Positions 1,579 to 64,000 of a stretch of DNA of 64,000 nt are shown one piece after another. The notes beneath the pieces were generated by a model that was given only the letters and a program-made list of their open reading frames with translations, was not told the DNA's origin and searched no databases. Source of the DNA: Desulfobacula sp. (GTDB lineage: Bacteria; Desulfobacterota; Desulfobacteria; Desulfobacterales; Desulfobacteraceae). The stretch's first letter is position 1. Every line of letters starts with the position of its first letter. The DNA is taken from positions 1 through 64,000 of the forward strand of contig JAMPXP010000021.1 of the NCBI GenBank assembly GCA_023701135.1. The letters run 5' to 3'. The position numbers and the translations under genes were made by a program.

Positions 1579-1718
1579 ATTTTTTATACCTTTCGGACTT
1601 GGGCATAAAAAAAGCCCAGTCTCACACGGTCTTTTCCCCCACTCATCTTGGGTTCAAAGAAGTTAATACCCGTGCGAGCTGGACAAGGATGAATTTCTTC
1701 GGTCCAATGCTCTATTTT

Positions 1719-1761
1719 AGGAAACGCAAGTTTCCTTAATCGGACATATTAAGTCTGATTA
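1719..1761. repeat. Two adjacent inverted repeats, possible operator
   Basis: Two palindromes lie back to back upstream of the leftward gene that starts at 1578. The first is AGGAAAC-GCAA-GTTTCCT (perfect 7-bp arms). The second is TAATCGGAC and GTCTGATTA separated by 7 bases (9-bp arms with one mismatch). They sit in the 237-bp gap between two leftward genes, a typical place for a repressor or replication-protein site. The rest of the gap (1579-1718 and 1762-1815) shows nothing else I can name, apart from a small GGGC/GCCC hairpin at about 1603. Confidence 0.4.
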
Positions 1762-1815
1762 GGGTTTTGTCAAGGATGGATATGCAAATCCCCTGCCGTT
1801 ACTGGGTGATAGTTT

Positions 1816-2181
1816 TCAACCCTCCTGTCGCATACGGCTTTTTTGTTTGTCAAAAACCCATCCTTGGGCCTGGCAGATGAGATTAACCTCGCTCGCTGGT
1901 CTGACTTGCCAGTATTCATCGTGCTCGACTTCATACAGGCCTTTAACCTTGATGGTTTTCAATTCCGAATATGGGATAAGCCCCCACTCCGCATTCATTA
2001 AATCACCGTTGAGGCAGGCAAACCCCCAGAATAAATCGCCGCCATCATACTCACAGATGTACCAGTCACAGGACCCGAGAAAGAAATGAGCGTGAATGGT
2101 CTTGTCTGGCAAGGCAATATGTTCTGTCTGATAAAGCCGGGGGATACTGTTAAGTCTGTCTTTTCTGATTTCATTCCACAT
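1816..2181 (-). CDS. DUF2958 domain protein
   Basis: A 121-residue protein that matches the DUF2958 pattern along its whole length: N-terminal IPRLYQTE, then ALPDKTIHAHFFLGSCDWYI, EYDGGDLFWGFACLNGD and AEWGLIPYSELK. DUF2958 proteins have no established function. In my knowledge they occur mainly on plasmids, integrative elements and phages, often near replication and DNA-modification genes. The start at 2181 follows AAAAGGAG. It lies 24 bp downstream of the small gene ending at 2206, in the same orientation, so the two are probably co-transcribed. It supports reading the left end of the window as an integrated element. Confidence 0.85.
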   Translation of the reverse strand: MWNEIRKDRLNSIPRLYQTEHIALPDKTIHAHFFLGSCDWYICEYDGGDLFWGFACLNGDLMNAEWGLIPYSELKTIKVKGLYEVEHDEYWQVRPASEVNLICQAQGWVFDKQKSRMRQEG

Positions 2182-2205
2182 TGTGTTTTCTCCTTTTGTT
2201 AAATG

Positions 2206-2550
2206 TTATGAAATCGCCTTTGATAAAGGCTTTGATTGCCGTTTTAAGGACTGAATGACCTTGGAGGCATCAATGCGTTTCATCGTAGCCAAATCGGTCC
2301 CATATAGCCTGAAACAGACATTGTTCAGGCTTTGGATGCTGATACTGTGCTGACTGGCAAGCAGGCGGATATACCAGAGTTGACGGTCAGTAATCAGGCG
2401 GTCTTTCCAATCAAAAGTATGTTGTTTCCTGCCGGGTGTCGGGAAAGGAAGAATGTTGCCTGAAACAGCCTGTTCTGATGGTTTTTTGCGTTGCTGTGAA
2501 TGCCCTGTAAATCTTTGTAGGGTCCTGGTTTGGGAAATGTGTTGTAGCAT
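2206..2550 (-). CDS. Small accessory protein with helical C-terminal domain
   Basis: A 114-residue protein. The basic, low-complexity N-terminus (about residues 1-45) is followed by a compact helical segment beginning ITDRQLWYIRLLA and ending in ASKVIQSLKRQ. This pattern (a T-x-x-Q-x-x-x-I-x-x-L-A helix, then a short loop and an SxxI..L helix) resembles a ~45-residue module appended to phage and plasmid DNA-metabolism proteins. That resemblance is from memory and weak. The start at 2550 follows ACAGGAG. It is the first gene of a leftward pair with the DUF2958 gene. Function unknown. Confidence 0.6.
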   Translation of the reverse strand: MLQHISQTRTLQRFTGHSQQRKKPSEQAVSGNILPFPTPGRKQHTFDWKDRLITDRQLWYIRLLASQHSISIQSLNNVCFRLYGTDLATMKRIDASKVIQSLKRQSKPLSKAIS

Positions 2551-2952
2551 AGCGATACTCCTGTTTTTGGGTTAAAACAAAAATGGCCGGAAAAACCGGC
2601 CATGGAATTGCGAATAGGATGCCCCCAGGGGGAGGGAAGTTGATCTAGTGGTTCGAATTAAATGGCTTGTCTGGTTTATCTTTCTCCATCGCCGGTTTTT
2701 CTATATCTTAATTTTAATATTCGTAGGCGTGGGGCGATAACCTAACATTCAGCGAAGATGGACACCCATATAGGCAGGTAGCAGAGGGCGATAAATCTGG
2801 ATTTTTAAAACCCTGTGACCTTACTGGGGTTTCAATTCTCTGACTGTCCTTGGCTGGGATTAAAACCGGAAAGGTCTCGCGCAAAAAATATATGGAGGCA
2901 GGATTAAGAAAGGGTGACCATGGTGGGTTTATGGGCCTGGAATAATGGGTGA
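2551..2952. other. 402-bp AT-rich gap, no gene seen
   Basis: The stretch between the accessory gene starting at 2550 and the upstream activating element of the first PEP-CTERM gene. No ORF here has a plausible ribosome site and composition, and no tRNA or clear terminator was recognised. It presumably carries the leftward promoter for the gene starting at 2550. Confidence 0.4.
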
Positions 2953-3000
2953 TATGTAAAAAAGGTAATAATATTTGGGTAAAAAATGTGCTTTGTGAAA
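2953..3000 (+). promoter_or_regulatory. Upstream activating element of PEP-CTERM gene 1
   Basis: A 48-bp block nearly identical to 4521-4569, upstream of the other PEP-CTERM gene. Shared parts are TATGTAAAAAAGGTAATA, then GTAAAAAATGTG, then TTTGTGAAA. GTAAAAAA occurs twice in direct orientation with about two helical turns between. It lies about 80-125 bp upstream of a -24/-12 promoter, the usual position for a sigma-54 enhancer-binding-protein site. In PEP-CTERM/exosortase bacteria that activator is expected to be PrsR, partnered with the kinase PrsK. That assignment is inference; neither gene is in the window. Confidence 0.7.
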
Positions 3001-3075
3001 ATAATGCCATAAATTTTGAATTTCGATTTTTTTGGGATAAGCCTATCAATAAATGGTTTTAAAATTTTTTGTTCG

Positions 3076-3093
3076 TAGGCATAATTATTGCAG
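3076..3093 (+). promoter_or_regulatory. Sigma-54 (-24/-12) promoter, PEP-CTERM gene 1
   Basis: TAGGCATAATTATTGCAG has GG at 3078-3079 and GC at 3090-3091 with exactly 10 bases between, as required by RpoN, and it fits TGGCA-N-TTGC. Transcription would start near 3103, leaving a ~100-base leader before the ATG at 3205. The promoter at 4644-4661 has the same spacing. Confidence 0.7.
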
Positions 3094-3204
3094 ATTTTTA
3101 ACACAGCAAAGTAGAATCTGATATGACAACAGAGACTAAAAGGAGTTAGTTTCAAATGGAAAGGGTAGAATTGGCAAATACAAATTTTAAGGGAGGAAGA
3201 ATCA

Positions 3205-3843
3205 ATGAGAAAAAGGTCTGTAGGGTTCATATTTGCAATTTTAATGTGGAGTACCATTTTATTATCTGAAACGAGCTTTGCAACAAATATAGAATATTAT
3301 ATCGGAGCCGATGATTATGTACAATTATTTATTGATGGGACTCTTAGGGCTTCATATGATAATATCAACCAATCAGGAGGCGACAGCACTGGTTTATTTG
3401 ATTTAACTAATGGATGGCACGATATACAAATAATTTATAAAAACAGATTGGGATCAAATTACCTTGGTTTTTATGAAGGCGACGGTGTCACGACTGCAAC
3501 TCTTGTGCCATTATCATCTTTGCGTTCCTATGACTCAACAGGCAGTTTTATAAACGGGTTAACAGCAGAATATTTCGATTTATCAGGTACTTTCATCAAA
3601 AAAATATATGGAGAGGGACCAATAGAGCATGGCGCTATGTGGGTCAATTCTGATTTGTTAACATACTATCAGGGTGTTTCCCCTGATGTTTGGGCGGGAA
3701 ATTTTAATGGATGGTCTACTTTCGAAGAAAGGCTATCAGGACAAATTTTAGTGGGCTCTGCCCCAGTACCGGAACCTGCCACAATGCTCCTCCTCGGCTT
3801 CGGTCTTCTTGGCATTGCTGGACTGTCCAGGAAAAAGAATTAA
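3205..3843 (+). CDS. PEP-CTERM sorting domain protein with PA14-like region
   Basis: A 212-residue exported protein. It has an N-terminal signal peptide (MRKRSVGFIFAILMWSTILL, cleavage near ATN) and a C-terminal exosortase sorting signal: VPEPATMLLLGFGLLGIAGL, then the basic tail SRKKN. The mature part has a pattern like a PA14/carbohydrate-binding fold (YYIGADDYVQLFIDG, NGWHDIQIIY, then LGFYEG). The start follows GGGAGGAAG. Exosortase-processed proteins go to the cell surface or extracellular matrix; the exosortase gene is not in the window. The gene lies on the element side of the tRNA-Glu fragment yet shares its promoter with the PEP-CTERM gene beyond it. A hairpin terminator follows. Confidence 0.9.
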   Translation: MRKRSVGFIFAILMWSTILLSETSFATNIEYYIGADDYVQLFIDGTLRASYDNINQSGGDSTGLFDLTNGWHDIQIIYKNRLGSNYLGFYEGDGVTTATLVPLSSLRSYDSTGSFINGLTAEYFDLSGTFIKKIYGEGPIEHGAMWVNSDLLTYYQGVSPDVWAGNFNGWSTFEERLSGQILVGSAPVPEPATMLLLGFGLLGIAGLSRKKN

Positions 3844-3867
3844 AATAGAAATCTGAATCAAGATTTA

Positions 3868-3908
3868 AGGGCAGGGATATTGAGTTATGAGTTAGTTCCT
3901 GCCTTTTT
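3868..3908 (+). terminator. Rho-independent terminator
   Basis: GGCAGGGA and TTCCTGCC form a stem around an ~18-base loop and are followed by TTTTTT, 25 bp after the stop of the PEP-CTERM gene. The terminator after the second PEP-CTERM gene has the same GGCAGG core. Confidence 0.8.
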
Positions 3909-3976
3909 TAATGGATTTAAAAACGGATAAAAACAACAGAAACCTTGAACAAGGCTAATGTGTTTTTACAGGTTGT

Positions 3977-4108
3977 GATTACAAAGGCTTTTTTTGTGAC
4001 GCTTTAAAGACAAGGGTCTTGGTATCCTTGTGATAGGATTACATGGTTTAGTGTAAAAAAGTGTGGCACGATTACAAGGACTGTAACGGAATACAGGCAC
4101 CTTGTAAC
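3977..4108. repeat. Clustered GATTACAAGG repeats, putative integrase arm sites
   Basis: Five related short sites occur within about 130 bp. Direct copies are GATTACAAAGG (3977), GATTACATGG (4037) and GATTACAAGGA (4070). Inverted copies are CCTTGTGAT (4026) and CCTTGTAAC (4100). They end about 135 bp from the tRNA-Glu fragment. Spaced direct and inverted sites beside a tRNA-borne core are the layout of tyrosine-recombinase arm-type binding sites. The role is inference. Confidence 0.5.
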
Positions 4109-4155
4109 ACACACTTTCTAATTTTAATCTTTGTGTGTCTGGATGGGGAAATATT

Positions 4156-4206
4156 GACGGCTTTCTCGACGGCTTTTGATGGAAGAAAACGGCTTTTAAC
4201 GGCTCT
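4156..4206. repeat. Four ACGGCTTT direct repeats next to the core site
   Basis: GACGGCTTT (4156), GACGGCTTT (4168), AACGGCTTT (4188) and AACGGCTCT (4198) lie immediately left of the tRNA-Glu fragment, with starts 12, 20 and 10 bp apart. They could bind an integrase or excisionase. Confidence 0.5.
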
Positions 4207-4242
4207 CGATGGTGCTTAAATACAGTGGAATACGCTTCTGGA

Positions 4243-4290
4243 CGCCCTTTCACGGCGACGACAGGGGTTCGAATCCCCTTGGGGACGCCA
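4243..4290 (+). other. tRNA-Glu(UUC) 3' fragment: attachment-site scar
   Basis: Bases 4243-4290 read as the anticodon arm (CGCCCTTTCACGGCG, with TTC as anticodon), the T arm (GGGGTTCGAATCCCC), the 3' acceptor strand and the encoded CCA of tRNA-Glu. The 5' half (acceptor GTCCCC and D arm) is absent; the upstream sequence is unrelated. A displaced 3' tRNA half with its own terminator is what remains at one end of an element integrated into a tRNA gene. The intact tRNA-Glu and integrase are predicted left of the window. It should not be annotated as a functional tRNA. Confidence 0.8.
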
Positions 4291-4304
4291 ATTTCACCCC
4301 GGTG

Positions 4305-4368
4305 AAAAAACCGGAAGAAGTTTTGAGCAGCAAAGACTTGCTCCAGGCTTCTTCCGGTTTTTGTTTTT
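4305..4368 (+). terminator. Strong terminator, originally of tRNA-Glu
   Basis: The stem is CCGGAAGAAG / CTTCTTCCGG with a 27-base loop and is followed by TTTTTGTTTTT. It starts about 20 bp after the CCA of the tRNA fragment, so it is most simply the original terminator of the tRNA transcript left behind after integration. Confidence 0.8.
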
Positions 4369-4423
4369 CGGATTATGAAAGTAGTGTGTTGTGAGTTTTG
4401 AGTTGTGAGAAGTTTTGCCGCTC

Positions 4424-4458
4424 TCAATACTCAATACTCAATACTCAATACTCAATAC
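4424..4458. repeat. Tandem heptamer TCAATAC x5
   Basis: Five perfect head-to-tail copies of TCAATAC lie between the tRNA-derived terminator and the regulatory region of the second PEP-CTERM gene. It is a simple-sequence tract prone to slippage, with no visible role. Confidence 0.85.
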
Positions 4459-4520
4459 TTTCCTGTTTTTTTGTGCCCTGCAGGGGGCATGGGGGTTAGA
4501 GTGCTCTTATTTTTCTTCGC

Positions 4521-4569
4521 TATGTAAAAAAGGTAATAAGAATTGTGTAAAAAATGTGTTTTGTGAAAA
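4521..4569 (+). promoter_or_regulatory. Upstream activating element of PEP-CTERM gene 2
   Basis: The second copy of the block at 2953-3000: TATGTAAAAAAGGTAATA, GTAAAAAATGTG, TTTGTGAAA, with only a few differences in the middle. It lies about 77-125 bp upstream of the -24/-12 promoter at 4644, the same arrangement as for the first PEP-CTERM gene. It is probably the binding site of the same sigma-54 activator. Confidence 0.7.
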
Positions 4570-4643
4570 AAAGTTCCAGGCTCGTTGCTTTTGTTTTTTG
4601 ATGGATATGCTTGCCAATAAAGGATTTTATAATTATTGGGTGC

Positions 4644-4661
4644 AAGGTATGCTTTTTGCTT
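4644..4661 (+). promoter_or_regulatory. Sigma-54 (-24/-12) promoter, PEP-CTERM gene 2
   Basis: AAGGTATGCTTTTTGCTT has GG at 4646-4647 and GC at 4658-4659 with exactly 10 bases between. The start site should fall near 4671, just before the riboswitch, so the aptamer would form the very 5' end of the mRNA. Confidence 0.7.
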
Positions 4662-4671
4662 ATATTCAGGA

Positions 4672-4755
4672 GGAAAGTATAAGGCCAAACCTGCTGTGAA
4701 GCAGGGACGGAAAGCCAACGGGTCTTGCGGGAAGATCGCCGGGTTGCTGAGACTA
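4672..4755 (+). promoter_or_regulatory. GEMM-I (cyclic dinucleotide) riboswitch
   Basis: The conserved blocks of the GEMM-I class occur in order: GGCCAAACC, a hairpin CCTGCTGTGAAGCAGG, GGACGGAAAGCC, AACGGGTCT, then GATCGCCGGGTTGC. Known members bind c-di-GMP, and a subgroup in Deltaproteobacteria such as Geobacter prefers 3',3'-cGAMP. An extra C in GGCCAAACC makes the ligand-specifying position hard to read by eye. No terminator lies between the aptamer and the ATG at 4781, only about 25 bases with AAGGAG at 4768, so control of translation initiation is the likelier mechanism. Confidence 0.85.
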
Positions 4756-4780
4756 CATTTTGATTTGAAGGAGAAAGTAG

Positions 4781-5605
4781 ATGAGGAAATTGTTGTTGGG
4801 TATTCTTATTGGTGTTTTTCTTATTGCTCCATTTTATCTGCAAACCGCTAATGCTACTATTTTATTCCAAGATGGCTTTGAAACAGCTTGGCAAGGTGAC
4901 TATGCTCCAGGTTGGATAAATGCTGCCTATCGCCATGGAGAAGCACCTGTTGGAAAAATGATGCAGCAAACGACTACCAAGTATTCAGGCAATTATGGGT
5001 TGCAGCTTACAGCAGCTTCAACACCAGAATCTTGGATGTGGTGGGCAGCGGTTGAGGTTGAAAATCTTCAATCATCTTCATTGGATAAAAAATACGATCC
5101 ATGGGTTTCAGCGATGTACTATGATGATGGGCAAGCTGGCCGGACAGGCCAAGTTTATGCCGTTCCTGACTGGGTAAATCCTTATATCAATGGTAGTGAA
5201 GATTGGACAGATGTCCAGTTTGGTGCTCGTTTTAACCAACCTACAACTTCGAATTATTATTATGTTGCAACGGGTGAAAATAGCCCTGGTTGGGAGAATA
5301 CAGGAGTTCAACGAACTGTAGGATGGCATGAACTGAAATTTCAATTGAGTTCATCTACTGGTGCTATTGATTTTTATATCGATACAGTTTTAGTCGGCTC
5401 ATCCTATCGGAACGACTATACAAATTTGGGAACGGCAATTGGACTTTACACAATGTTTCAGAATCCACTAAGTAACTGGAGTCAAGCCCTTCCATATACA
5501 ATTTGGGATGATTTTAAAGTGGGTTCATCAGTCCCCGAACCCACCACCATGCTCCTTTTTGGTCTTGGCCTTCTGGGTGTGGCCGGCATCGGCAGAAGGA
5601 AATAA
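4781..5605 (+). CDS. PEP-CTERM sorting domain protein under riboswitch control
   Basis: A 274-residue exported protein. It has a signal peptide (MRKLLLGILIGVFLIAPFYL, cleavage near ANA), a beta-rich mature region beginning ILFQDGFETAWQGDYAPGW and continuing with GWHELKFQLSSSTGAIDFYI, and the C-terminal signal VPEPTTMLLFGLGLLGVAG plus the tail IGRRK. The mature part looks like a concanavalin/lectin-like jelly roll, an inference from pattern only. The start follows AAGGAG. The protein should be sorted by an exosortase to the outer surface or matrix. Its gene has a sigma-54 promoter, an upstream element shared with the other PEP-CTERM gene and a GEMM riboswitch, which ties production to a cyclic dinucleotide signal. 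Confidence 0.9.
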   Translation: MRKLLLGILIGVFLIAPFYLQTANATILFQDGFETAWQGDYAPGWINAAYRHGEAPVGKMMQQTTTKYSGNYGLQLTAASTPESWMWWAAVEVENLQSSSLDKKYDPWVSAMYYDDGQAGRTGQVYAVPDWVNPYINGSEDWTDVQFGARFNQPTTSNYYYVATGENSPGWENTGVQRTVGWHELKFQLSSSTGAIDFYIDTVLVGSSYRNDYTNLGTAIGLYTMFQNPLSNWSQALPYTIWDDFKVGSSVPEPTTMLLFGLGLLGVAGIGRRK

Positions 5606-14368: not shown

Positions 14369-17300
14369 TCAGTTCCGGGCCTTTCTCAATTCCGCGAGTC
14401 TTCCCAGGGAAAGAGAATATTCATTCCAGTTGTCCAGATAGGTGCCCAGGGCTTCCCTGTAATGATGGGCGGCTCGTTCAGGATGCTTTTCCCCTTCGGC
14501 CCATAATCCCAGGGCCGTATGAAGGGTGACCAGCTTTTCCGGTTTTTTCTCGGCCAGCCGGGTCAGGAGATCCTCGCCGGTATTTTCAAGAAGATGTTTG
14601 ATGACGGCCCGGTAAAAAGGATCCCGGATGCTTTTGTAAAAGCTGTTGAGGTATTCGACGGCAGCCTGTCTCTCTCCGGCCAGGGCCAGAATTTCCCCCT
14701 TGAGGAGTCCCAGGCTCAGCCCCAGCCCTGTTTCACGGGAAGACCAGTCGAAATATCGTTCAACCAGGTCAACCACTTCCCGGCGGTTTCCTTTCCCGGC
14801 ATGATAAAAGGCCGCTTTTCCCAGCAGGGTCAGGTTTTCAGGTGAAAGCGCCATGAGTTTTTCCAGGATTTCGACGTTTTCCTCATGGCTGGGGGTGCCC
14901 GATTCAAATTGGTCGATGAGAGCGGCAATGGTCTCCTTGATCCCGGCAGCCTCTTTTCTGTATTCTTTTGCCCTTTGAATAAAGGCGTCCATGTCCTTTT
15001 GCCGGGCCTTTTTTTCTTTACCGCCTTTGCCGGAATTTTCCCTGATCCGGTTCAGCCGTGAAAAAGAAAGAAAATAGACCCAGTCATTGATATCCGACGT
15101 CAGGATGGACTGTTCAAACACTTCCCGGGCATGGTCAACCTCATTGGCCTTTTCCGATATGAGTCCCTCCATAAAGAGGCGCCAGCTTTTTTCCGACAGG
15201 TTTTCGTAATCGATAAGGCCTTTTTCCATTCTTTTTTTGTCTTTCAGCACACGGGCAAGATAGCCTAAATATTCATCCGCATCATACCAGTCCATGTCAA
15301 AAAGATTGCGGGTCAGGGCATCGGGTTGATCCTTGCCCGAGAGCCAGGCCATAATATAGAGCATCAGTCTGGACGTATGGTTTTCCGGCTCCATGGAACA
15401 CAGCCGTTTGAAATAAGAAGCGCTTTGATCAAAATCCGTTGTACAAAATTTCAGCATGGCCGAAGCAAAGAGCAAAATAGGGTCATTGCTGGTTTTTAGC
15501 ATGGTTTCCGACAGCTCCTCAGCCTTTTTAAATTCGTTTTCAAGGGCCAGGTTGGTGATTTCTTCAAGCTTTGAGGGCAGGGAGAAATCAAGAACCCCGT
15601 CCCATTGGGGCTGGCCCGCTTTAATGAGGTCAATGAATTTTGCAGGCCTTGAAATGGGCAGGATCAGGCCAAAATCCGACAAAGGAGTGGAACCGGTGAA
15701 ATTTCCGGAATTCTGATCCGTGACCACACCCGATGCAATGCCGATGACCCGTCCATTTGAGCTGACGGCCGGTCCCCCACTGTTTCCCTTATATATGGAG
15801 GAATCCACCTGGATGATATCCCTTGAGGTTCTCCGGACATGGCCCCGGGTAATGCTGGTATTGATCCTGTCATACTGGGTCTGGTTTCCCAGGGGAAAGC
15901 CCAGGATGACCACCGGGGAAAGCCGTTTGATGTCTTCGGCCTTCAGCCGGGTTTCAAGGGGAAGGGGCCTCAGGCCGGGAGGCGGGTTATCGATTTTCAG
16001 GACTGCAAAATCATTGAGAAAAGGGGACCGGATCATTTCAGAAGGGCCGGCCAAGGTCCTGGGGACACCGGCGATTCTTAAATTTCCGGGCCCGCCGGTG
16101 CTGTAGGCAGAAGACAGATCATACAGATCGTTCAATTCCGGGCTGTCCTGAAAGGCGGGCAGGCGATTAAAGGCCCTGGCCCCTTCAAACCATAAAAACA
16201 TCCGGAAATCAAAGGTGATATTTTTTGTATACTGGCTGTAATGGTCATAGGCCTTGAACAGCGACCCGTCATCCAGCCAGGGGCAGGCCACATGGCGGTT
16301 GGTGATAAGGTATCCCGCCTTGTCCACCAGAAAGGCCGTGCCTTCCACCTTGTTCCTGAAAATAACCCTTCCCTGTTCGGACAACCGGTATTCCACCAGG
16401 ACAAAGGCCACGGAACCGGCATGGGATTCAACAAATTCCGACAGAACGGTTTCCGCCTGCCGGGTTTCGGATTTCAGGTAAATCCATGAAACGCCGGCCG
16501 CGGCAATCATGGCAATAATGATGAAAATCAGAAGAAAGATGACTTTTTTCATCCATTTGAGATCGTTGATGATCCGGTGCTTTTTTCGCTGAACCAGGGG
16601 CCTTGCATCGGAATAGGGCAGGCGGTCGAGAATCCGGGCCAGGGCAAAAACGATTTTTCCCATGGTCTGGGGCCTCAGATCCGGGTCATCGGCCAGCATG
16701 ACCTTGATGAGAACGGCCAGTTCCGGTTCAATGCCCCTGGATTCGGCTGCTTTCAGGGAGAATTCTTTTAAGTCGGGATCCTGGGTCATGATTTCCAGGA
16801 ATACCTTGCCCAGGGACCAGATGCTGCTTCGAAAATCAATGGCCCGTTTATGGATGATGTCCGGGTGGCATTCCAGGAGTTTTTCCAGCATGGGGCCGTG
16901 GTGGGTGGCCCTGGCATTGAGGAATCTTGAAAGCTTGTAATTGATTTTAACGTTAAGGTCATCCTTCCCGCCGGCCGGGATCAGGATGTCTTCAAGCACC
17001 AGATAGGGCATGAAATGGTCGTATTTGTGGAGCAGGTCCAGGGCTGAGGCAATATTGTAAAACAGCTTGACCAGGCTTCTCTGGTCATGGAACCGTCCGG
17101 ACATGAAGATGGAGCCCCAGTCCTCGGCCTCCACCCATTCGCTGACCCGGTACCAGTGGCCGTCATTGCTTTTTTTGACGGCATAATGGGCCACAAAATG
17201 ATCCGGCGGCAGTTTTTTCAGGGCTTCCAGTTCATCTAAAAGCCTTTGGGCCACTGTGTCATCCACGCCCGAGGCATCGGTAAAGAGCCTGATGGTGACA

Positions 17301-17479
17301 GGGGCCGATTCATCGTCTTTGACGGCCTTGGCCACCAGGGAGGAATAACCCTCATGAATGATGTCCAGGATCTTGTAATCGTCAATATATTTCAATCCTT
17401 CTGCCGGATGCCCCCCGCAGGCCGGGCACAGGCTTATTTTTTCAGAAAGAATCTGACCGCAGGACGGACATTTTTTCAT
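14369..17479 (-). CDS. Zinc ribbon-pseudokinase-TM-trypsin-TPR fusion protein
   Basis: A 1036-residue protein. Residues 1-22 form a zinc ribbon (CPSCG and CPACG). Residues ~33-285 have the outline of a Ser/Thr kinase, but the VAIK lysine is replaced (VTIRLF), the HRD loop reads PYLVLEDI and no DFG is seen, so it is probably a pseudokinase. A TM helix at about 312-335 is followed by a trypsin-like protease domain with an intact-looking triad: His396 in TNRHVAC, Asp490 in NDFAVLKID and Ser567 in GNSGGP. The rest (about 630-1036) is helical TPR-like repeats. Expected topology is a cytoplasmic pseudokinase and periplasmic protease/TPR region. The start at 17479 is assigned from the zinc-ribbon beginning. 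Function unknown; signal-controlled envelope proteolysis is an inference. Confidence 0.85.
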   Translation of the reverse strand: MKKCPSCGQILSEKISLCPACGGHPAEGLKYIDDYKILDIIHEGYSSLVAKAVKDDESAPVTIRLFTDASGVDDTVAQRLLDELEALKKLPPDHFVAHYAVKKSNDGHWYRVSEWVEAEDWGSIFMSGRFHDQRSLVKLFYNIASALDLLHKYDHFMPYLVLEDILIPAGGKDDLNVKINYKLSRFLNARATHHGPMLEKLLECHPDIIHKRAIDFRSSIWSLGKVFLEIMTQDPDLKEFSLKAAESRGIEPELAVLIKVMLADDPDLRPQTMGKIVFALARILDRLPYSDARPLVQRKKHRIINDLKWMKKVIFLLIFIIIAMIAAAGVSWIYLKSETRQAETVLSEFVESHAGSVAFVLVEYRLSEQGRVIFRNKVEGTAFLVDKAGYLITNRHVACPWLDDGSLFKAYDHYSQYTKNITFDFRMFLWFEGARAFNRLPAFQDSPELNDLYDLSSAYSTGGPGNLRIAGVPRTLAGPSEMIRSPFLNDFAVLKIDNPPPGLRPLPLETRLKAEDIKRLSPVVILGFPLGNQTQYDRINTSITRGHVRRTSRDIIQVDSSIYKGNSGGPAVSSNGRVIGIASGVVTDQNSGNFTGSTPLSDFGLILPISRPAKFIDLIKAGQPQWDGVLDFSLPSKLEEITNLALENEFKKAEELSETMLKTSNDPILLFASAMLKFCTTDFDQSASYFKRLCSMEPENHTSRLMLYIMAWLSGKDQPDALTRNLFDMDWYDADEYLGYLARVLKDKKRMEKGLIDYENLSEKSWRLFMEGLISEKANEVDHAREVFEQSILTSDINDWVYFLSFSRLNRIRENSGKGGKEKKARQKDMDAFIQRAKEYRKEAAGIKETIAALIDQFESGTPSHEENVEILEKLMALSPENLTLLGKAAFYHAGKGNRREVVDLVERYFDWSSRETGLGLSLGLLKGEILALAGERQAAVEYLNSFYKSIRDPFYRAVIKHLLENTGEDLLTRLAEKKPEKLVTLHTALGLWAEGEKHPERAAHHYREALGTYLDNWNEYSLSLGRLAELRKARN

Positions 17480-57925: not shown

Positions 57926-59560
57926 ATGCCGATCAAAGGGAAAACCCTGACTCTGGACGGATATACATTAACCATTGAAGAATTGATGAAGGCAGGGAAT
58001 GATCTGTCCATCAAAGTCAAGGTGGCGGATAAAAACTGGCCCAAGATCCGCGAGTGCAGAGCACTGGTTGATAAATGGGCCAATGAAGAACGCTGTATTT
58101 ATGGTGTCAATACAAGCTGTGGCGGTCTGGTGGACTATCTTTTGCCCAGAGAAAGGGATAATGATTTTCAGAAAAATCTGGTCCGGGCCATCACCACCCA
58201 GGTGGGAAAGCCATTTGAGGATTCAATGGTTCGAAAATTCATGATTGCAAGAGCCAATTCTCTGTGTCGTGGTTTTTCCGGAATCAAGGAAAAGAACCTG
58301 AAAATTTACCTGGATATGATCAATAAGCATGTCTTCCCGGTTGTCCCGAGAAAAGGCTCCCTTGGCACTAGCGGTGATTTAGGCCCCCTTGGCTGCATCG
58401 CCAGCGTTGCCTTTGGTGAATGGAAAGCCGTTTATAAAGGGAAGGTCATGCCGGGAAAAGAAGCAATGGCTGCTGCCGGTGTTGAGCTCATGCATTTGAA
58501 TGCCAAGGAAGGTCTTTCCCTGATCAATGGAACCTCCGGAATGGTGGGTCTTGCCTGTACGGTTATCTCGGAAGCGACGAATACATTGAAAAATTCCGAT
58601 ATTATCGCTGCCTTTGCCATTGAAACCCTCATGGGAAGATTTAATCCCTTTGATCCCATCGTACATGAACAAAAATACCACCCCGGCCAATATGCCACTG
58701 CATTGAATTTAACAAAGCTTCTTAAGGGAAGCGGATTGGCCATTGATGAGATAGAACTTTCTTTAAAACTTCAGTCAACCCTCAAGGAGCACAAAGGGGT
58801 GTCTGTGGCGCATATTCCGGTTGAAGATGCTTACTCTATCCGGTGCACGCCTCAGTTTGTAGGACCTACAAAAGAAGCGGTAAACCATGCCCGTGAAGTT
58901 CTTTTAAGAGAACTCAATTCCAGCAATGATAATCCGCTGATTTTTACCGAACTGGATACATTCTTTCACAATGGCCATTTCCATGGTCAGCCCATCTCTT
59001 TTGCCATGGATTGCCTGGGAATCGCCATGGTTAACCTTGGTGTTGTCAGCGACAGGCGCATTGACCGGTTCATGGATGAGCATCACAGTACCGGGCTTCC
59101 CCCCTTCCTGTGCAAAGAAGACACCGGGGTCCGCATGGGGCTCATGGGCGGCCAGTTCATGACCACCTCCCTTGTGGCAGAGAACAGAACCCTTGCCGTA
59201 CCTGCTTCAATTCAGTCCATCACCTCAACGGCAGATTTTCAGGATATTGTCAGCTTTGGCCTGATTGCCGGAAGAAAAGCCCGCAAAATTGTTGAAAATA
59301 CAAATCATATTCTTTCTTTTGAATTGCTTTGCGCAGCCCAGGCCGCAGACATCCGAGGGCCTGAAAAACTGAGCCCGGCCGGCAAGATCATGTACAAGGC
59401 TGTTCGTGAAACCCTTGAGTACATGTCTTATGACAAGGTGTATATTGATGACCTGGAAGAACTCAAAAAGAGAATTGAGTCCGGTGAGTTCGTGGAAAAG
59501 GTGGAAAAAGAAGTTGGGGAGCTTCTGATCGTTCATGAAAAGAATAAAGACTTAAAATAA
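57926..59560 (+). CDS. MIO-dependent ammonia-lyase/aminomutase
   Basis: A 544-residue member of the HAL/PAL/aminomutase family, which uses an MIO cofactor made from three of its own residues. The tripeptide is Thr148-Ser149-Gly150 (GSLGTSGDLGPLG) where HAL usually has Ala-Ser-Gly. The catalytic Tyr59 is in CIYGVNTSCGG. Other family blocks are NGTSGM, HEQKYHPGQY, DAYSIRCTPQFVGP, NSSNDNPLIF, FHGQPISFA and VSDRRIDRFMDE. ADFQDIVSFG replaces the HAL-type NQEDHVSM, arguing against histidine as substrate. With a beta-transaminase-like gene 19 bp downstream and a BKACE gene, an alpha-to-beta aminomutase is the likelier role (inference). RBS AAGGAGGAG. Confidence 0.9.
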   Translation: MPIKGKTLTLDGYTLTIEELMKAGNDLSIKVKVADKNWPKIRECRALVDKWANEERCIYGVNTSCGGLVDYLLPRERDNDFQKNLVRAITTQVGKPFEDSMVRKFMIARANSLCRGFSGIKEKNLKIYLDMINKHVFPVVPRKGSLGTSGDLGPLGCIASVAFGEWKAVYKGKVMPGKEAMAAAGVELMHLNAKEGLSLINGTSGMVGLACTVISEATNTLKNSDIIAAFAIETLMGRFNPFDPIVHEQKYHPGQYATALNLTKLLKGSGLAIDEIELSLKLQSTLKEHKGVSVAHIPVEDAYSIRCTPQFVGPTKEAVNHAREVLLRELNSSNDNPLIFTELDTFFHNGHFHGQPISFAMDCLGIAMVNLGVVSDRRIDRFMDEHHSTGLPPFLCKEDTGVRMGLMGGQFMTTSLVAENRTLAVPASIQSITSTADFQDIVSFGLIAGRKARKIVENTNHILSFELLCAAQAADIRGPEKLSPAGKIMYKAVRETLEYMSYDKVYIDDLEELKKRIESGEFVEKVEKEVGELLIVHEKNKDLK

Positions 59561-59579
59561 GACTTAAGGATAAGACACC

Positions 59580-60935
59580 ATGCCTAAAGAAAAATTAGGA
59601 ATTGAAGAGCAGATTGAAAAGAAGATAGCAGAGGCTTACCGGGAAAAATTCCCGGTTTCAAAAAAGCATCATGAAGAGCTGATCAATTATATTCCCGGTG
59701 GTGCGACCCGAAGTTTATCTTATTTCAGACCCTTTCCCATTCACATCGACCATGGTGAGGGAGCCTTTGTCTTTACGCCTGAAGGCCACAAGCTTCTGGA
59801 TATCACCAATGCCTATGGCGCCATTGTCCATGGGCATGGTGACCCGGATGTGGTAAAAGCTGTTCAGGCCGGGATTGCAAAAGGGTCCCAGTATTCCAGC
59901 CCGACCCAGGGCCAGTACAAGCTTGCCAAGCTTTTGTGTGAAAGGGTTCCGGGGTTTGACCGGGTGAGGTTCCTGAACTCCGGGACCGAAGCCACCCTGT
60001 TTGCCATGAGAACGGCCAGGGCATTTACCGGAAAAGACAAGATATTGAAAATGGTGGGCGGCTACCACGGCACCCATGACAGCGTGGCCGCCTCCACCAA
60101 GAAGAACGTCATCACGGCCGGTATTCCCAGGGGCATGACCCAGGATATGCTGGAAGTGAGCTTTAATGATTTTGATGCGTTGGAAAAAAAGGTCAGGGAA
60201 AATGCCTCTGAACTTGCCGCCGTTATTATGGAGCCTTTTTTGGGGGCCGGCGGGGTGGTGCTTCCGAAAGAAGGATATCTGGAACATGTACGCAAAGTCA
60301 CCCAGGACCATAAGGTTCTCCTGATTTTTGATGAAATTTTTTCTTACCGGGTGGATACGGGCGGATGCCAGAAGCTCTGGAACGTGACCCCGGATCTGAC
60401 AACGGTGGGCAAGGTGGTGGGTGGAGGGCTTCCCATCGGTGTCTTCGGCGGTAAAAAAGAAATCATGAACATCTATTGCCATGAAAATACCGACAGGCCG
60501 CTGTATCATTCCGGGACCTTTAACGGCTATGAAACCGTGATGCAGGCCGGTTACGCAGCCCTGTCCAAGTATGATGAAAATGCCGTGGCCTATATCAACG
60601 GCCTTGGGGCAAGGCTCCAGGAAGGGCTCTTGAAAAGTATTAGGACCAATGGATTGAGGATACAGTCCAATCGGATCGGGTCCCTTCTGAACCTTCATTT
60701 TTATAATGAGCCCATCACCACGGCAGAACAGGTTCTGAAGTCGGAAGAAAAACTCCATGCCCTGATGCATCTGTCCCTTTTAAACAAGGGGGTTTTTAGC
60801 ATCCCCAGGGGACTGTTCATCCTGTCGACGGCCATGACCAACAAGGAAATTGATTTTCTCTTGGATAAAATAGATGAAACCTTAAAAGAATTGTTGCCAT
60901 TAATTAAAGAAAATTATAACCATTTACTCTTGTAA
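59580..60935 (+). CDS. Class III PLP aminotransferase (beta-amino-acid type)
   Basis: A 451-residue fold-type I PLP enzyme related to glutamate-1-semialdehyde aminomutase. It has IPGGATRSLSYFRPFPIHID, FLNSGTEATLFAMRTARAFT, GGYHGTHDS, the PLP Asp251 in LLIFDEIFSYR and Schiff-base Lys278 in TTVGKVVGGGLPIG. The PGGxTRS...FPI segment near residue 40 resembles, from memory, the carboxylate-binding segment of bacterial beta-phenylalanine aminotransferases. There is no heme-synthesis context; instead it sits between the MIO enzyme and BKACE genes, which favours transamination of a beta-amino acid to a beta-keto acid. RBS AAGGATAAG. Confidence 0.88.
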   Translation: MPKEKLGIEEQIEKKIAEAYREKFPVSKKHHEELINYIPGGATRSLSYFRPFPIHIDHGEGAFVFTPEGHKLLDITNAYGAIVHGHGDPDVVKAVQAGIAKGSQYSSPTQGQYKLAKLLCERVPGFDRVRFLNSGTEATLFAMRTARAFTGKDKILKMVGGYHGTHDSVAASTKKNVITAGIPRGMTQDMLEVSFNDFDALEKKVRENASELAAVIMEPFLGAGGVVLPKEGYLEHVRKVTQDHKVLLIFDEIFSYRVDTGGCQKLWNVTPDLTTVGKVVGGGLPIGVFGGKKEIMNIYCHENTDRPLYHSGTFNGYETVMQAGYAALSKYDENAVAYINGLGARLQEGLLKSIRTNGLRIQSNRIGSLLNLHFYNEPITTAEQVLKSEEKLHALMHLSLLNKGVFSIPRGLFILSTAMTNKEIDFLLDKIDETLKELLPLIKENYNHLLL

Positions 60936-60972
60936 TGAGGTTTGATTAATGTATTTCAAAAAGAGAAAATAA

Positions 60973-61455
60973 ATGGTTCTAGACAAAATTGACAAACAGA
61001 TTTTAAATACGCTTCAGGAGAATGGCAAAACAACCAATTCCAAACTGTCCAAAATTGTAGGGATTTCAGCCCCTGCAACCCTTGAAAGGGTTAAAAGGCT
61101 TGAGCTTGCAGGGGTGATTTCCCACTTTACGGCGGTACTGGACCCGGAAAAGATCGGGTTTTCCATCATGGCCATGGTCAGTATCAGTTTAAGTTTGAGC
61201 AGCCTGTCATCGGTGGCCGCCATCAAACAACGGTTTGTTGCCCTGGATGAGGTGGTGGAATGCTACCAGATTGCAGGGGCCAATGATTTTGTGCTCAAGG
61301 TCATTGCAAAGGATATCAAAGCCTATGGGGAGTTCATGAACAAAAAGCTCACCCAGATAGAAGGGATTCAAATCATTAAATCCTCCTTTGTGATTGACAA
61401 TGTCAAGGAAAAGAAAATGTTCATCCTTGACTTGGATGAGGAATACGGAGTCTAG
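60973..61455 (+). CDS. Lrp/AsnC family transcriptional regulator
   Basis: A 160-residue regulator with an N-terminal HTH (LDKIDKQILNTLQENGKTTN, then SKIVGISAPATLERVKRLEL) and a C-terminal RAM/effector domain (about 65-150; FVALDEVVECYQIAGANDFV, then LTQIEGIQIIKSSFVI). Lrp-type proteins bind amino acids or related acids and usually regulate adjacent catabolic genes. Its place inside the cluster suggests it senses the pathway substrate. The phased repeats at 57750 are a candidate operator. The ribosome site is weak (AAAGAGA). Confidence 0.94.
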   Translation: MVLDKIDKQILNTLQENGKTTNSKLSKIVGISAPATLERVKRLELAGVISHFTAVLDPEKIGFSIMAMVSISLSLSSLSSVAAIKQRFVALDEVVECYQIAGANDFVLKVIAKDIKAYGEFMNKKLTQIEGIQIIKSSFVIDNVKEKKMFILDLDEEYGV

Positions 61456-61489
61456 AAAATATTAATTTTTTCAACAGGAGAAGCAACCA

Positions 61490-62425
61490 ATGGATAATAA
61501 AATAATTATAACAGCCGCCATTACAGGGTCTGTTCATATCCCCACCATGAGTGATTACCTCCCCATAACCCCAGATCAGATTGTGGAGGATGCGGTCAAG
61601 GCCCATGAGGCCGGCGCCGCCATTGCCCATATCCACGTGAGAAATCCTGAAAACGGTCTACCTGTATCGGACCCGGCGCTTTTCATGGAGGTCTGCAGCA
61701 AGATCAAGAAGAGATGCAATATGATCCTTCTTCCCACCACCGGCGGCGGCATGAACCAGACCACGGAAGAGAAACTCATCCCCATCAAAAAGCTTCGCCC
61801 CGAAATGTGTTCCTTTGACCCTGCGCCCTTTAATTTCGGTATCTTTCAGATTGCCGGCCGGTTCAAGGAATATAAATACGCCTGGGAAAAGGACTATCTT
61901 GAACTCTGCAAGAATGTGACCTTCAGGCCGACGTTTAACGACGACCTCATCTATGGAAAGGCCTTTCTTGAAATTGACACCAAGCCGGAACTGGAAATCT
62001 ATGAGCTGGGCCACATTTCCTATGTGAAATGGCTGTTGGAAGAAAATATGCTGAAAGCACCGGTTCATCTCCAGTTTGTATTCGGCCCCATGGTGGGATG
62101 GATGGTGCCGTCGGTCAAACACCTGGTATTGATCTACGACGAGGCAAAGGAAGTCCTGGGGGAAGGCAATTTTACCTGGTCCGTGGCTGCCGGCGGCCGG
62201 TTCCAGATCCCCATCACCAGTACGGCCATGGCCATGGGCGCGCAGAATATCAGGGTCGGGCTTGAGGATTCCGTATACGCCGGCAAGGGTATCATGGCAA
62301 AGGCCAGCGCCGACCAGGTCAACATGGTCAAACGCATCGCCAGGGAAATGAGCCTTGAACCGGCGACATCCGACGAAGCAAGACAGATTCTCAAGCTTAA
62401 AGGAATCGATAAGGTAGCGTTCTGA
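61490..62425 (+). CDS. Beta-keto acid cleavage enzyme (BKACE, DUF849)
   Basis: A 311-residue zinc enzyme of the BKACE family, whose founding member Kce cleaves 3-keto-5-aminohexanoate in lysine fermentation. The family reaction is a beta-keto acid plus acetyl-CoA giving acetoacetate plus a shorter acyl-CoA. It has IIITAAITGSVHIP, zinc ligands His47 and His49 in AHIHVRNPE, TTGGGM, and the Arg255/Glu259/Asp260 set in NIRVGLEDSVYAGKG. It is longer than Kce (~275) through a middle insert around EYKYAWEKDYLELC, so the substrate pocket probably differs. RBS CAGGAGAAG. It supplies the chain-cleaving step of the proposed amino acid pathway. Confidence 0.93.
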   Translation: MDNKIIITAAITGSVHIPTMSDYLPITPDQIVEDAVKAHEAGAAIAHIHVRNPENGLPVSDPALFMEVCSKIKKRCNMILLPTTGGGMNQTTEEKLIPIKKLRPEMCSFDPAPFNFGIFQIAGRFKEYKYAWEKDYLELCKNVTFRPTFNDDLIYGKAFLEIDTKPELEIYELGHISYVKWLLEENMLKAPVHLQFVFGPMVGWMVPSVKHLVLIYDEAKEVLGEGNFTWSVAAGGRFQIPITSTAMAMGAQNIRVGLEDSVYAGKGIMAKASADQVNMVKRIAREMSLEPATSDEARQILKLKGIDKVAF

Positions 62426-62510
62426 TTTTTTGAAAACCCTGTTTACAATGTGGGCGTTTTTTAAGAAACGGACGCGGTTTGACAGAATAATGAAAAAAAG
62501 GAGGGCATCG

Positions 62511-64000
62511 TTGAATTATTCAGGTTACGCTTCAATTCATGCTCGGCATATTCCTGACAAGGTCTGCCTGATCGAAAGAACCCCGGCAACGGGGGCAAGG
62601 CGATCCTTTACCTGGAGGGAATTTAATGACGAGATCAACAGAACGGCGAATTATCTATCAAAGGAACTGGGGGTCAGGCATGGGGATTTTGTCATGCACC
62701 TTCAGAAAGATTCTCTGGAATGGCTGATCACCTATTTTGCCATCATCCGCCTGGGTGCAGTCGTTGTTCCATTGAATTTTCGTTTTGAGACCTCTGATGT
62801 CCTCTATGCCGCCGAAGTTTGCAAGCCGGATGTTTTTATTCTCGGATCTGAATTTTTAGGGGTTGTTCAGCCGGGACAAAAAGATCTTGGGACCATTAAA
62901 AAATATATCTGTATCGGTAAAGATGTTCCAAAAGACATGATTGATTTCAAAACGGTCCAGGCATATCCGGATACATCAGATGCCCTGGTGGACGTTGACA
63001 GGGATCATGACCTTGCCATGATGTTCACTTCGGGAACAACCGGAAAACCAAAGCCCGTCCTCCATACCCATTATTCCATCAATAATACGGCCATTGGCAA
63101 TGGAATGACCTATTTTGTCCAGAAGGATGATAATTATTTATTCTTTTTACCTTTATATCACAGCGGCACCATGTTTTTATGGGCTCCTTTCTATGCCACC
63201 GGTGCGACTGGGACCATCATCAGGGATTTCCGCGACCCCAAATGGATTATTGAAGCCGTTGCTGAAGAAAAATGTACGGACGTGCTCTTTGTGGTTCCCA
63301 TCGGCATTGCTGTTTTAAATGCCATTGCCAAGGGGGATCTGAAACTGGAGAACTATGATCTTTCTTCGTGGAAATATATGGAGATCGGAGCCCAGCCCGT
63401 ACCCTTTGATATCATGAAGCTCCTGGTGGAAAAATTGCCCTGCGCCGTATCCAATATCTATGGTATCACCGAGGGCGGCGGGGGCGGTTTGTTTAATCTG
63501 TATCCCGAGGATGTTCTCTCAAGACCCGGTTCCATCGGCAAACCCACCTTCGGGGTTGAGGCCAAAATTGTCGGGCCCACAGGGGAAGAGCTTCCCGATG
63601 GTCACGTGGGAGAGCTCATCTTCCGGACGCCCCGGATGATGCGGGAGTATTATTCAAACCCAGAAAAAACAAAAGAAACCATAAAAAAGGGTTGGCTTTA
63701 CACCGGAGATTTACTAAAGAAGGACAAAGACGGGTATTTTTATATCGTTGACCGGATGAAGGATATGGTCACCAGCGGGGGTGAGAATATTTTCCCGGTT
63801 GAGATTGAAGATGCATTGATGGATCATCCCGACATTGATGATGTGGCCTGCATCGGATATCCGGATGACCGGTTGGTGGAAATTGTCCTTGCCGTTGTCC
63901 AGACAAAAGAAGGAAAAGAGTTGACGGAAGAAGAGGTGATTGAGTTTGCAAAATCCAAACTTTCTCTTTACAAGGTCCCGCGCAAGGTCATCTTTGACCG
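62511..64000 (+). CDS. AMP-dependent acyl-CoA synthetase (3' truncated by window)
   Basis: At least 496 residues of an ANL-superfamily ligase; no stop codon occurs before the window end. It has the P-loop MFTSGTTGKPKPVLHTHYS, FLPLYHSGTMFLWAPF, ISNIYG-type NIYGITEGGGGG, LYTGDLLKKDKDGYFYIVDR and KDMVTSGGENIFPVEIEDAL. It activates a carboxylic acid to its CoA thioester through an acyl-AMP. The start TTG 62511 is chosen because AGGAGGG lies 5 bp upstream; ATG 62490 in frame lacks a ribosome site. As the last visible gene of the cluster it could activate acetoacetate released by BKACE or an acid substrate or product; the sequence does not decide. Confidence 0.93.
   Translation, partial: MNYSGYASIHARHIPDKVCLIERTPATGARRSFTWREFNDEINRTANYLSKELGVRHGDFVMHLQKDSLEWLITYFAIIRLGAVVVPLNFRFETSDVLYAAEVCKPDVFILGSEFLGVVQPGQKDLGTIKKYICIGKDVPKDMIDFKTVQAYPDTSDALVDVDRDHDLAMMFTSGTTGKPKPVLHTHYSINNTAIGNGMTYFVQKDDNYLFFLPLYHSGTMFLWAPFYATGATGTIIRDFRDPKWIIEAVAEEKCTDVLFVVPIGIAVLNAIAKGDLKLENYDLSSWKYMEIGAQPVPFDIMKLLVEKLPCAVSNIYGITEGGGGGLFNLYPEDVLSRPGSIGKPTFGVEAKIVGPTGEELPDGHVGELIFRTPRMMREYYSNPEKTKETIKKGWLYTGDLLKKDKDGYFYIVDRMKDMVTSGGENIFPVEIEDALMDHPDIDDVACIGYPDDRLVEIVLAVVQTKEGKELTEEEVIEFAKSKLSLYKVPRKVIFD

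Follow-up and report, generated by a model that had tools for sequence, protein, structure and literature searches.

A conserved gene cluster in Desulfobacula and its relatives as a candidate anaerobic route from phenylalanine to benzoyl-CoA

A five-gene cluster predicted to degrade phenylalanine

The window analyzed here, a stretch of 64,000 nucleotides from a Desulfobacula sp. genome (assembly GCA_023701135.1, contig JAMPXP010000021.1, positions 1 to 64,000), ends in a run of genes encoding a 4-methylideneimidazol-5-one (MIO) family enzyme, a class III aminotransferase, an Lrp/AsnC regulator, a beta-keto acid cleavage enzyme (BKACE, DUF849) and an acyl-coenzyme A (CoA) ligase. This five-gene order, in which the gaps are mostly short, recurs in relatives and is not expected by chance. 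The cluster is probably a catabolic phenylalanine operon, with a predicted route from L-phenylalanine through (S)-beta-phenylalanine and benzoylacetate to benzoyl-CoA and acetoacetate. Its genes, with protein lengths in amino acids (aa), are:

57926..59560, + strand: MIO-family enzyme, AdmH/PaPAM-like, 544 aa (PF00221, 525 bits)
59580..60935, + strand: class III aminotransferase, 451 aa (PF00202, 184 bits)
60973..61455, + strand: Lrp/AsnC regulator, 160 aa (PF01037, 66 bits; PF13412)
61490..62425, + strand: BKACE (DUF849), 311 aa, full-length family member (PF05853, 284 bits)
62511..64000, + strand, running to contig position 64091: acyl-CoA ligase (PF00501, 249.5 bits; PF13193)

The Pfam scores for PF00221, PF00202, PF01037, PF05853 and PF00501 are each above cut-off. 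The original prediction had described five same-strand genes with short gaps, in this order and of these families, and both the arrangement and all five assignments were recovered. The ligase reading frame runs past the window end and reaches its stop at contig position 64091. Its start is likely the TTG at 62511, with GGAGGG at 62500 upstream, and not the mechanical open reading frame start (TTG 62430); the resulting ligase of 526 aa equals that of two relatives in length.

In the proposed pathway, the MIO enzyme would isomerize L-phenylalanine to (S)-beta-phenylalanine while releasing some cinnamate on the side, and the aminotransferase would turn (S)-beta-phenylalanine into benzoylacetate (3-oxo-3-phenylpropanoate). 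BKACE would then cleave benzoylacetate with acetyl-CoA, yielding benzoyl-CoA and acetoacetate, and benzoyl-CoA would enter the class II benzoyl-CoA pathway, for which BamB, Had and Oah genes lie on contig C42 of the same genome. The Lrp protein is a likely regulator of the cluster, a downstream tripartite ATP-independent periplasmic (TRAP) transporter would take up phenylalanine or similar aryl acids, and aryl acids would be activated by the ligase on a side branch. The stereochemistry appears coherent on paper, as the AdmH-like enzymes and the known beta-phenylalanine transaminases are both (S)-selective. The logic of aminomutase, transaminase and BKACE in the original prediction gives the best fit to gene order, relatives and context; it gains phenylalanine as its likely substrate and probably loses the ligase as a core step.

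The MIO enzyme resembles AdmH-type phenylalanine aminomutases

The NCBIfam model that best matches the MIO protein is TIGR04475 (663.5 bits, cut-off 800), which describes phenylalanine aminomutase forming (S)-beta-phenylalanine. Histidine ammonia-lyase models gave 483 and 461.5 bits, the latter for HutH (TIGR01225, cut-off 539), and the cut-offs of tyrosine 2,3-aminomutase (TIGR03832, 455.1 bits, cut-off 501) and phenylalanine ammonia-lyase (TIGR01226, 257.4 bits, cut-off 519) were not reached either. An enzyme of the AdmH/EncP group may have lyase activity even when it falls short of TIGR01226.

AdmH is the closest solved structure (3unv, 470 bits), followed by SgTAM entries at 377 bits or less, a margin of about 93 bits. 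The MIO tripeptide is Thr-Ser-Gly, with T148 present in 35 of 36 distinct orthologs; that of PaPAM is presumably the same, its residues not being spelled out in the 3unv chain. In the alignment, Y59, L85, I89, Y303, R306 and F411 correspond to PaPAM Y78, L104, V108, Y320, R323 and F428, which we take to be pocket and catalytic residues. Y59, L85, Y303, R306 and F411 are invariant in 36/36 distinct orthologs, and the PaPAM pocket and catalytic residues are thus matched in the window protein, I89 for V108 being a conservative change. The same position is occupied in SgTAM by His93, which presumably binds the hydroxyl of tyrosine, and among the 36 orthologs it is Ile in 31 and Val in 5.

A 40-row tree, which took in no more than ten of the Desulfobacteraceae-type rows reaching 80% and left out the gammaproteobacterial locus L124 as too short, placed the Desulfobacteraceae MIO proteins in one clade with a Halieaceae metagenome-assembled genome (MAG) and one gammaproteobacterial MAG (support 99/97). 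The sister clade (99/99) holds actinobacterial proteins, a RIFCSP gammaproteobacterium, Serratia marcescens MSU97 and Vibrionales SWAT-3, and HutH-like proteins are distant. By sequence, the MIO enzyme groups beside AdmH-type phenylalanine aminomutases, apart from histidine or tyrosine enzymes. A HutH reading was dropped (461.5 of 539 bits), with a genuine HutH encoded by a separate gene of this genome at contig 95.1 kb (694 bits, cut-off 539), as was a tyrosine 2,3-aminomutase reading (455.1 of 501 bits, with Ile or Val at the SgTAM His position). Mutase as well as lyase activity is found among the enzymes of the (S)-PAM group, whose AdmH-like members are (S)-selective, according to the available parts of PMC6413883.

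The aminotransferase and BKACE

The best solved match of the aminotransferase is 6k8h (279 bits), the Sphaerobacter transaminase StoTA, which acts on beta-phenylalanine as well as on further aromatic and aliphatic beta-amino acids; the beta-transaminases 6iz9, 2yku and 4ao9 stand lower, at about 250 bits. R44 aligns with 6k8h R36, the Arg proposed to hold the substrate carboxylate, and K278 with the catalytic Lys K282. Both are conserved in 39/39 orthologs, and the residue facing R44 in two alignments with glutamate-1-semialdehyde aminomutase (GSAM) is Ser. An exclusive GSAM role, which the original prediction had singled out as the alternative for this gene, is unlikely because the enzyme scores 345.5 bits against HemL (TIGR00713, cut-off 527.3), and a separate, true hemL lies elsewhere in the genome (C3:251164, 642.7 bits).

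In BKACE, the zinc and Arg/Glu/Asp residues pointed out in the original prediction are H47, H49, R255, E259 and D260, presumably the metal and catalytic residues, and they are conserved in 35/35 distinct orthologs. The protein does not reach the cut-off of the Kce model NF052387 (207.4 bits, cut-off 382). Residues 110-113 (61817-61828) read DPAP, where 3lot, 3e02, 3e49 and 8rio have NMGS or NMGT; D110 is present in 34/35 orthologs and W204 is invariant. DPAP and W204 may be the fingerprint of a new BKACE specificity or substrate class. The AlphaFold models of BKACE and the aminotransferase, with predicted local distance difference test (pLDDT) scores of 55 and 58, were too poor for fold searching.

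Conservation and variant clusters

A scan of the genome collection gave 74 loci, including 44 with an MIO protein at least 75% identical to that of the window, which overlap the genomes given G numbers below. Nine of the 44 were set aside in counting gene order as their contigs end at the MIO gene (n = 6) or the aminotransferase gene (n = 3). The original prediction hinged on gene order being conserved in relatives, and it is: BKACE follows in 34 of the 35 loci whose contigs extend beyond the aminotransferase gene, all but that of the Halieaceae MAG L086. The Lrp/AsnC regulator is accessory, since it was not found in 3/35 of these loci. Ligase genes are present in 29/44 loci, followed by a TRAP system of the window type (n = 22), the contig end (n = 3) or a distantly related TRAP type (n = 4). 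Carriers include Desulfobacula, Desulfotignum, Desulfospira joergensenii and other Desulfobacteraceae. A class-level search at 1e-125 found 41 carriers among 389 sampled genomes, all within the family of the window, and a phylum-level search at 1e-120 found none besides the window genome among 395 sampled. In Desulfotignum (L073, L087), the MIO and aminotransferase genes meet at a TAG within a 996-codon frame; this junction is probably incidental, other Desulfotignum loci being out of frame or carrying more stops.

Two types of variant were seen outside Desulfobacteraceae. The L086 locus (531-5393) keeps MIO, aminotransferase and Lrp genes (64-78% identical), with a PaaK-like ligase (197 bits, cut-off 700) in place of BKACE. 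Genes for a NirDL-like siroheme decarboxylase and a radical S-adenosylmethionine (SAM) protein lie further along the same contig (9618-11319). The second type consists of four genes in two gammaproteobacterial MAGs:

L091:315-6377: MIO enzyme, acyl-CoA synthetase, thiolase-like protein, class III aminotransferase
L124:1-4898: counterpart of the same order, with the MIO gene incomplete

The MIO proteins are 65-68% identical to that of the window; the synthetases score 711 and 699 bits against PRK12582 (cut-off 777) and the thiolase-like proteins 170 and 175 bits against TIGR01930 (cut-off 240.55), and the aminotransferases, 32-33% identical to the window enzyme, conserve the Arg and Lys. A FAD-dependent oxidoreductase gene (PF01266) follows the aminotransferase gene at L091:6545-7804, and TRAP genes (DctP, DctQ) start at L124:8359, about 3.5 kb beyond the cluster with other genes between. 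No hydratase or hydroxyacyl-CoA dehydrogenase gene occurs within either four-gene row. The gene set fits an intermediate that would already be a beta-keto acid: a mutase and a transaminase would have supplied the keto group, whereas a lyase would call for a hydratase and a dehydrogenase ahead of the thiolase, and the set has neither. We rank it as the best single argument for a mutase, coming from two MAG contigs with models under their cut-offs.

On balance, if narrowly, we favor the view that these clusters represent an unrecognized anaerobic phenylalanine route needing no radical, cobalamin, oxygen or ATP before benzoyl-CoA, which would replace the lyase reading in Desulfobacula and would have a ligase-thiolase finish in gammaproteobacteria.

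The cluster is tied to benzoyl-CoA genes

Occurrence of the cluster was compared with that of the ring-cleaving hydrolase Oah/BamA (TIGR03200) in 86 genomes of the family. With bamA counted only over cut-off, 37 genomes have both, 13 the cluster only, 2 bamA only and 34 neither (Fisher p = 9.5e-11, kinship ignored). Adding seven partial bamA matches (E at most 1e-26; G014, G015, G021, G315, G365, G385 and G391, the weakest being G015 at 1.7e-27) changes the counts to 44/6/2/34 (p = 1.9e-15, kinship again ignored). The strict table is safer, as 4/14 control genomes reach the looser threshold and 0/14 the cut-off. Four genomes (G003, G010, G019, G021) were scored cluster-positive on short MIO pieces; G004 and G023 have MIO pieces at a contig edge, and G363 has BKACE and ligase genes without MIO. 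The two genomes with bamA only (G022, G304) are 81-83% complete. Counted by genus (14 genera), the table is 9/1/0/4 (p = 0.005), and in genus g8 the cluster is found in only 2 of 19 genomes, the same two that alone have bamA over cut-off.

Physical linkage was also seen. In G030, genes for BKACE, aminotransferase, a transporter like those of the drug/metabolite transporter (DMT) superfamily, MIO enzyme, TRAP, oah (476 bits, cut-off 464), a short-chain dehydrogenase/reductase (SDR) and had (482 bits, cut-off 339) follow one another on one strand. In G390, genes for BamB (1286 bits to 4z3w, next match 234) and for a BamC-like protein are found on the opposite strand, some 5 kb upstream. Genes upstream of the G237 cluster, on the same strand, are BamC-like (75%), BamE-like (62%) and BamF-like (46%), as judged from their similarity to the neighbors of BamB on C42 of the window genome, where had and oah also lie. 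By co-occurrence and linkage, computation ties the cluster to benzoyl-CoA genes.

Directly behind BKACE in G030 (L051:7638-11368) are type I restriction-modification genes, encoding a specificity subunit and an N6-methylase fused to an HsdR-like N terminus.

The ligase probably belongs with the TRAP transporter

Beyond the window, the cluster is followed by the transporter genes:

contig 64271-67198, + strand: TRAP transporter DctP/DctQ/DctM, 3' of the ligase gene, DctQ being assigned by position and size

A response regulator gene on the opposite strand comes after them. Promoter-like and terminator-like sites lay within about 2 standard deviations of shuffled sequence. Elsewhere in the window (14369-17479, - strand), a protein of 1036 aa combines Ser/Thr protein-kinase-like and trypsin-like protease domains with a weak tetratricopeptide repeat (TPR) match.

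The TRAP proteins that follow the window cluster share 68-77% identity with their counterparts immediately downstream of the cluster in G008, which is located at about 2.12 Mb and whose MIO protein is 88% identical to that of the window. The G008 transporter in turn closely matches TRAP genes of G044 at 2.78 Mb (P 79.7, Q 74.7 and M 90.2% identical). The DctM9Q9P9 system of Desulfobacula toluolica Tol2 was published as a supposed phenylalanine/phenylacetate importer (available parts of PMC5109826). From the TRAP identity between G044 and G008, G008 is therefore very probably Tol2, and the transporter behind its cluster DctM9Q9P9. No MIO ortholog was matched in G044 at 1e-120, the best protein being 38% identical.

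The ligase of the G008 cluster is 73.6% identical to a ligase adjoining the similar TRAP genes in G044. By position, the G044 ligase fits FadD4 (Dmul_C24830) of D. multivorans, which the accessible text of PMC5109826 describes as a phenylacetyl-CoA ligase candidate tied by proteomics to phenylacetate and phenylpyruvate. The original prediction had made the ligase a pathway step. It is probably not a core one, because it is absent from the G030 cluster and because of this 73.6% tie to the TRAP module; it is probably an aryl-acid ligase of an uptake module (phenylacetate, cinnamate or benzoate). An acetoacetyl-CoA ligase reading is no longer favored after this tie.

A CoA-transferase gene pair adjoins indolepyruvate oxidoreductase genes in G008 (L166:6951-11430), and its products score 49 bits against TIGR02429 (cut-off 128.5). 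In Tol2, atoAD adjoins iorA2B2 and 'AtoAD' was raised with phenylalanine and phenylacetate, as far as the available parts of PMC5109826 go; the G008 genes are apparently these published AtoAD-IorAB genes.

Points against the phenylalanine route and alternative explanations

Several findings weigh against the proposed route. The phenylalanine ammonia-lyase of Tol2, in the 13C labelling work of Woehlbrand from 2013, reportedly gives cinnamate and then phenylacetate, and this enzyme is probably the ortholog of the window MIO gene. The MIO protein is related to the TIGR04475 family without being a member (663.5 against 800 bits), and because it lies under this cut-off and the (S)-PAM group holds both activities, a pure lyase is possible; the sequence does not decide between lyase and mutase. 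GSAM is nearly equal to 6k8h as a match for the aminotransferase (269 bits and below against 279), and the nearest BKACE model, NF053538 for 3,5-dioxohexanoate:acetyl-CoA, is reached with 334.6 bits, below its cut-off of 430. Strictly, 13/50 cluster genomes are without bamA, of which 7 have partial matches, themselves weak evidence, and 6 have none; two of the genomes with no bamA match (G020, G313) are 96-100% complete. Linkage to benzoyl-CoA genes was found in only 3/44 loci, a count made on many short contigs and with no random-gene control. The distantly related TRAP type takes the place of the usual one in 4/29 ligase-bearing loci, and the Tol2-type 'AtoAD', a possible activator of acetoacetate, matched no NCBIfam family at 1e-20.

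The MIO enzyme could also serve two branches, releasing much cinnamate for the ligase and beta-oxidation along with beta-phenylalanine for the aminotransferase and BKACE, with both branches reaching benzoyl-CoA. Such an enzyme, which overlaps the best explanation, would account for the ligase in 29/44 loci and for the cinnamate reported from Tol2, and a title in the reference list of PMC6413883 refers to thermal bifunctionality in this enzyme group. Against it, the available parts of PMC5109826 link the probable ligase ortholog in D. multivorans to phenylacetate and phenylpyruvate, not to cinnamate, and no hydratase or dehydrogenase gene was recognized within the Desulfobacteraceae clusters read. 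We regard a bifunctional branch point as unlikely, though a serious contender.

Quite unlikely, in our judgment, even as the main rival, is an ammonia-lyase route as for Tol2, where cinnamate from the MIO enzyme would reach benzoyl-CoA by CoA activation and beta-oxidation or by way of phenylacetate, leaving the aminotransferase and BKACE on a side path. The cinnamate and phenylacetate reported as Tol2 metabolites speak for it, and the ligase could activate cinnamate. Such a route leaves the aminotransferase and BKACE jobless, though they are near-constant companions of the MIO gene, and it has to do without a ligase in the G030 cluster; the gammaproteobacterial rows, with ligase and thiolase-like genes and no hydratase or hydroxyacyl-CoA dehydrogenase, do not suit it either. 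Lyase-active enzymes are included in the (S)-PAM group (PMC6413883, in part), and for D. multivorans the accessible text of PMC5109826 proposes beta-oxidation of cinnamate and calls the step from phenylglyoxylate to benzoyl-CoA 'unclear at present'.

It is improbable that the same three steps serve another substrate, such as tyrosine, with 4-hydroxybenzoyl-CoA as the product, a different aromatic amino acid, or an aromatic beta-amino acid taken up from outside. Although the pockets were read from sequence alone and 6k8h accepts various beta-amino acids, both aromatic and aliphatic, Ile or Val occupies the SgTAM His93 position in 36/36 orthologs, the transporter is like a phenylalanine/phenylacetate one, and TIGR03195 (4-hydroxybenzoyl-CoA reductase beta) is over cut-off in 0/86 genomes; 35 have weaker matches, and a variant reductase could be missed by this model.

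Comparison with known systems

If true, the phenylalanine route from aminomutase through BKACE would be a three-enzyme, oxygen-free path from phenylalanine to benzoyl-CoA, the central intermediate of anaerobic aromatic degradation, and it would imply a catabolic role for MIO aminomutases and a new substrate class for BKACE. To our knowledge, there is no earlier catabolic MIO aminomutase, MIO aminomutases being known from biosynthesis, and no BKACE acting on an aryl beta-keto acid. Phenylalanine is common among the amino acids of buried protein. Desulfobacteraceae are main organic-carbon oxidizers among the sulfate reducers of marine sediments, as described in the available parts of PMC11887813. 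The original prediction knew of no characterized pathway with this gene set; in the open literature, with subscription papers outside the search, no paper was found on an aminomutase coupled to beta-keto acid cleavage, on anaerobic transamination of beta-phenylalanine toward benzoyl-CoA, on phenylalanine ammonia-lyase in Desulfobacula or on a benzoylacetate route from phenylalanine, and the claim stands with the caveat of the lyase route reported for Tol2 on a probable ortholog.

In lysine fermentation, an aminomutase acts first, the beta-amine is oxidized to a ketone, and Kce cleaves the product with acetyl-CoA to give acetoacetate. The proposed order of aminomutase, beta-ketone formation and BKACE-type cleavage to acetoacetate is alike, but lysine fermentation uses SAM and B12 mutases with a dehydrogenase, where an MIO enzyme and a pyridoxal phosphate transaminase are proposed here. 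The window BKACE also falls well short of the cut-off for Kce (207 of 382 bits), and its acyl product would be aromatic.

AdmH is a biosynthetic enzyme. As PaPAM of andrimid biosynthesis (3unv, 470 bits), it is the closest solved relative of the window MIO protein and has similar pocket residues, whereas the clade of the window is a well-delimited sister group with tree support, encoded in what appears to be a catabolic operon. The beta-phenylalanine transaminases (6k8h StoTA, 2yku, 4ao9) share the fold class and the Arg of GG-x-T-R with the window aminotransferase, 6k8h having the top PDB score; the window enzyme differs in being conserved in an operon with a phenylalanine aminomutase-like gene.

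The lyase route of Tol2 shares with the window a probable MIO ortholog (88%, G008) and the same TRAP system, but it ends in cinnamate and phenylacetate, whereas the route proposed here would use beta-phenylalanine and benzoylacetate and the adjoining aminotransferase and BKACE. The Pad route of denitrifiers runs from phenylacetate through phenylglyoxylate to benzoyl-CoA (available parts of PMC5109826). Both would have benzoyl-CoA as their common end, but the aminomutase-BKACE route would dispense with alpha-oxidation and phenylglyoxylate and would make a single side-chain cut at the beta-keto acid.

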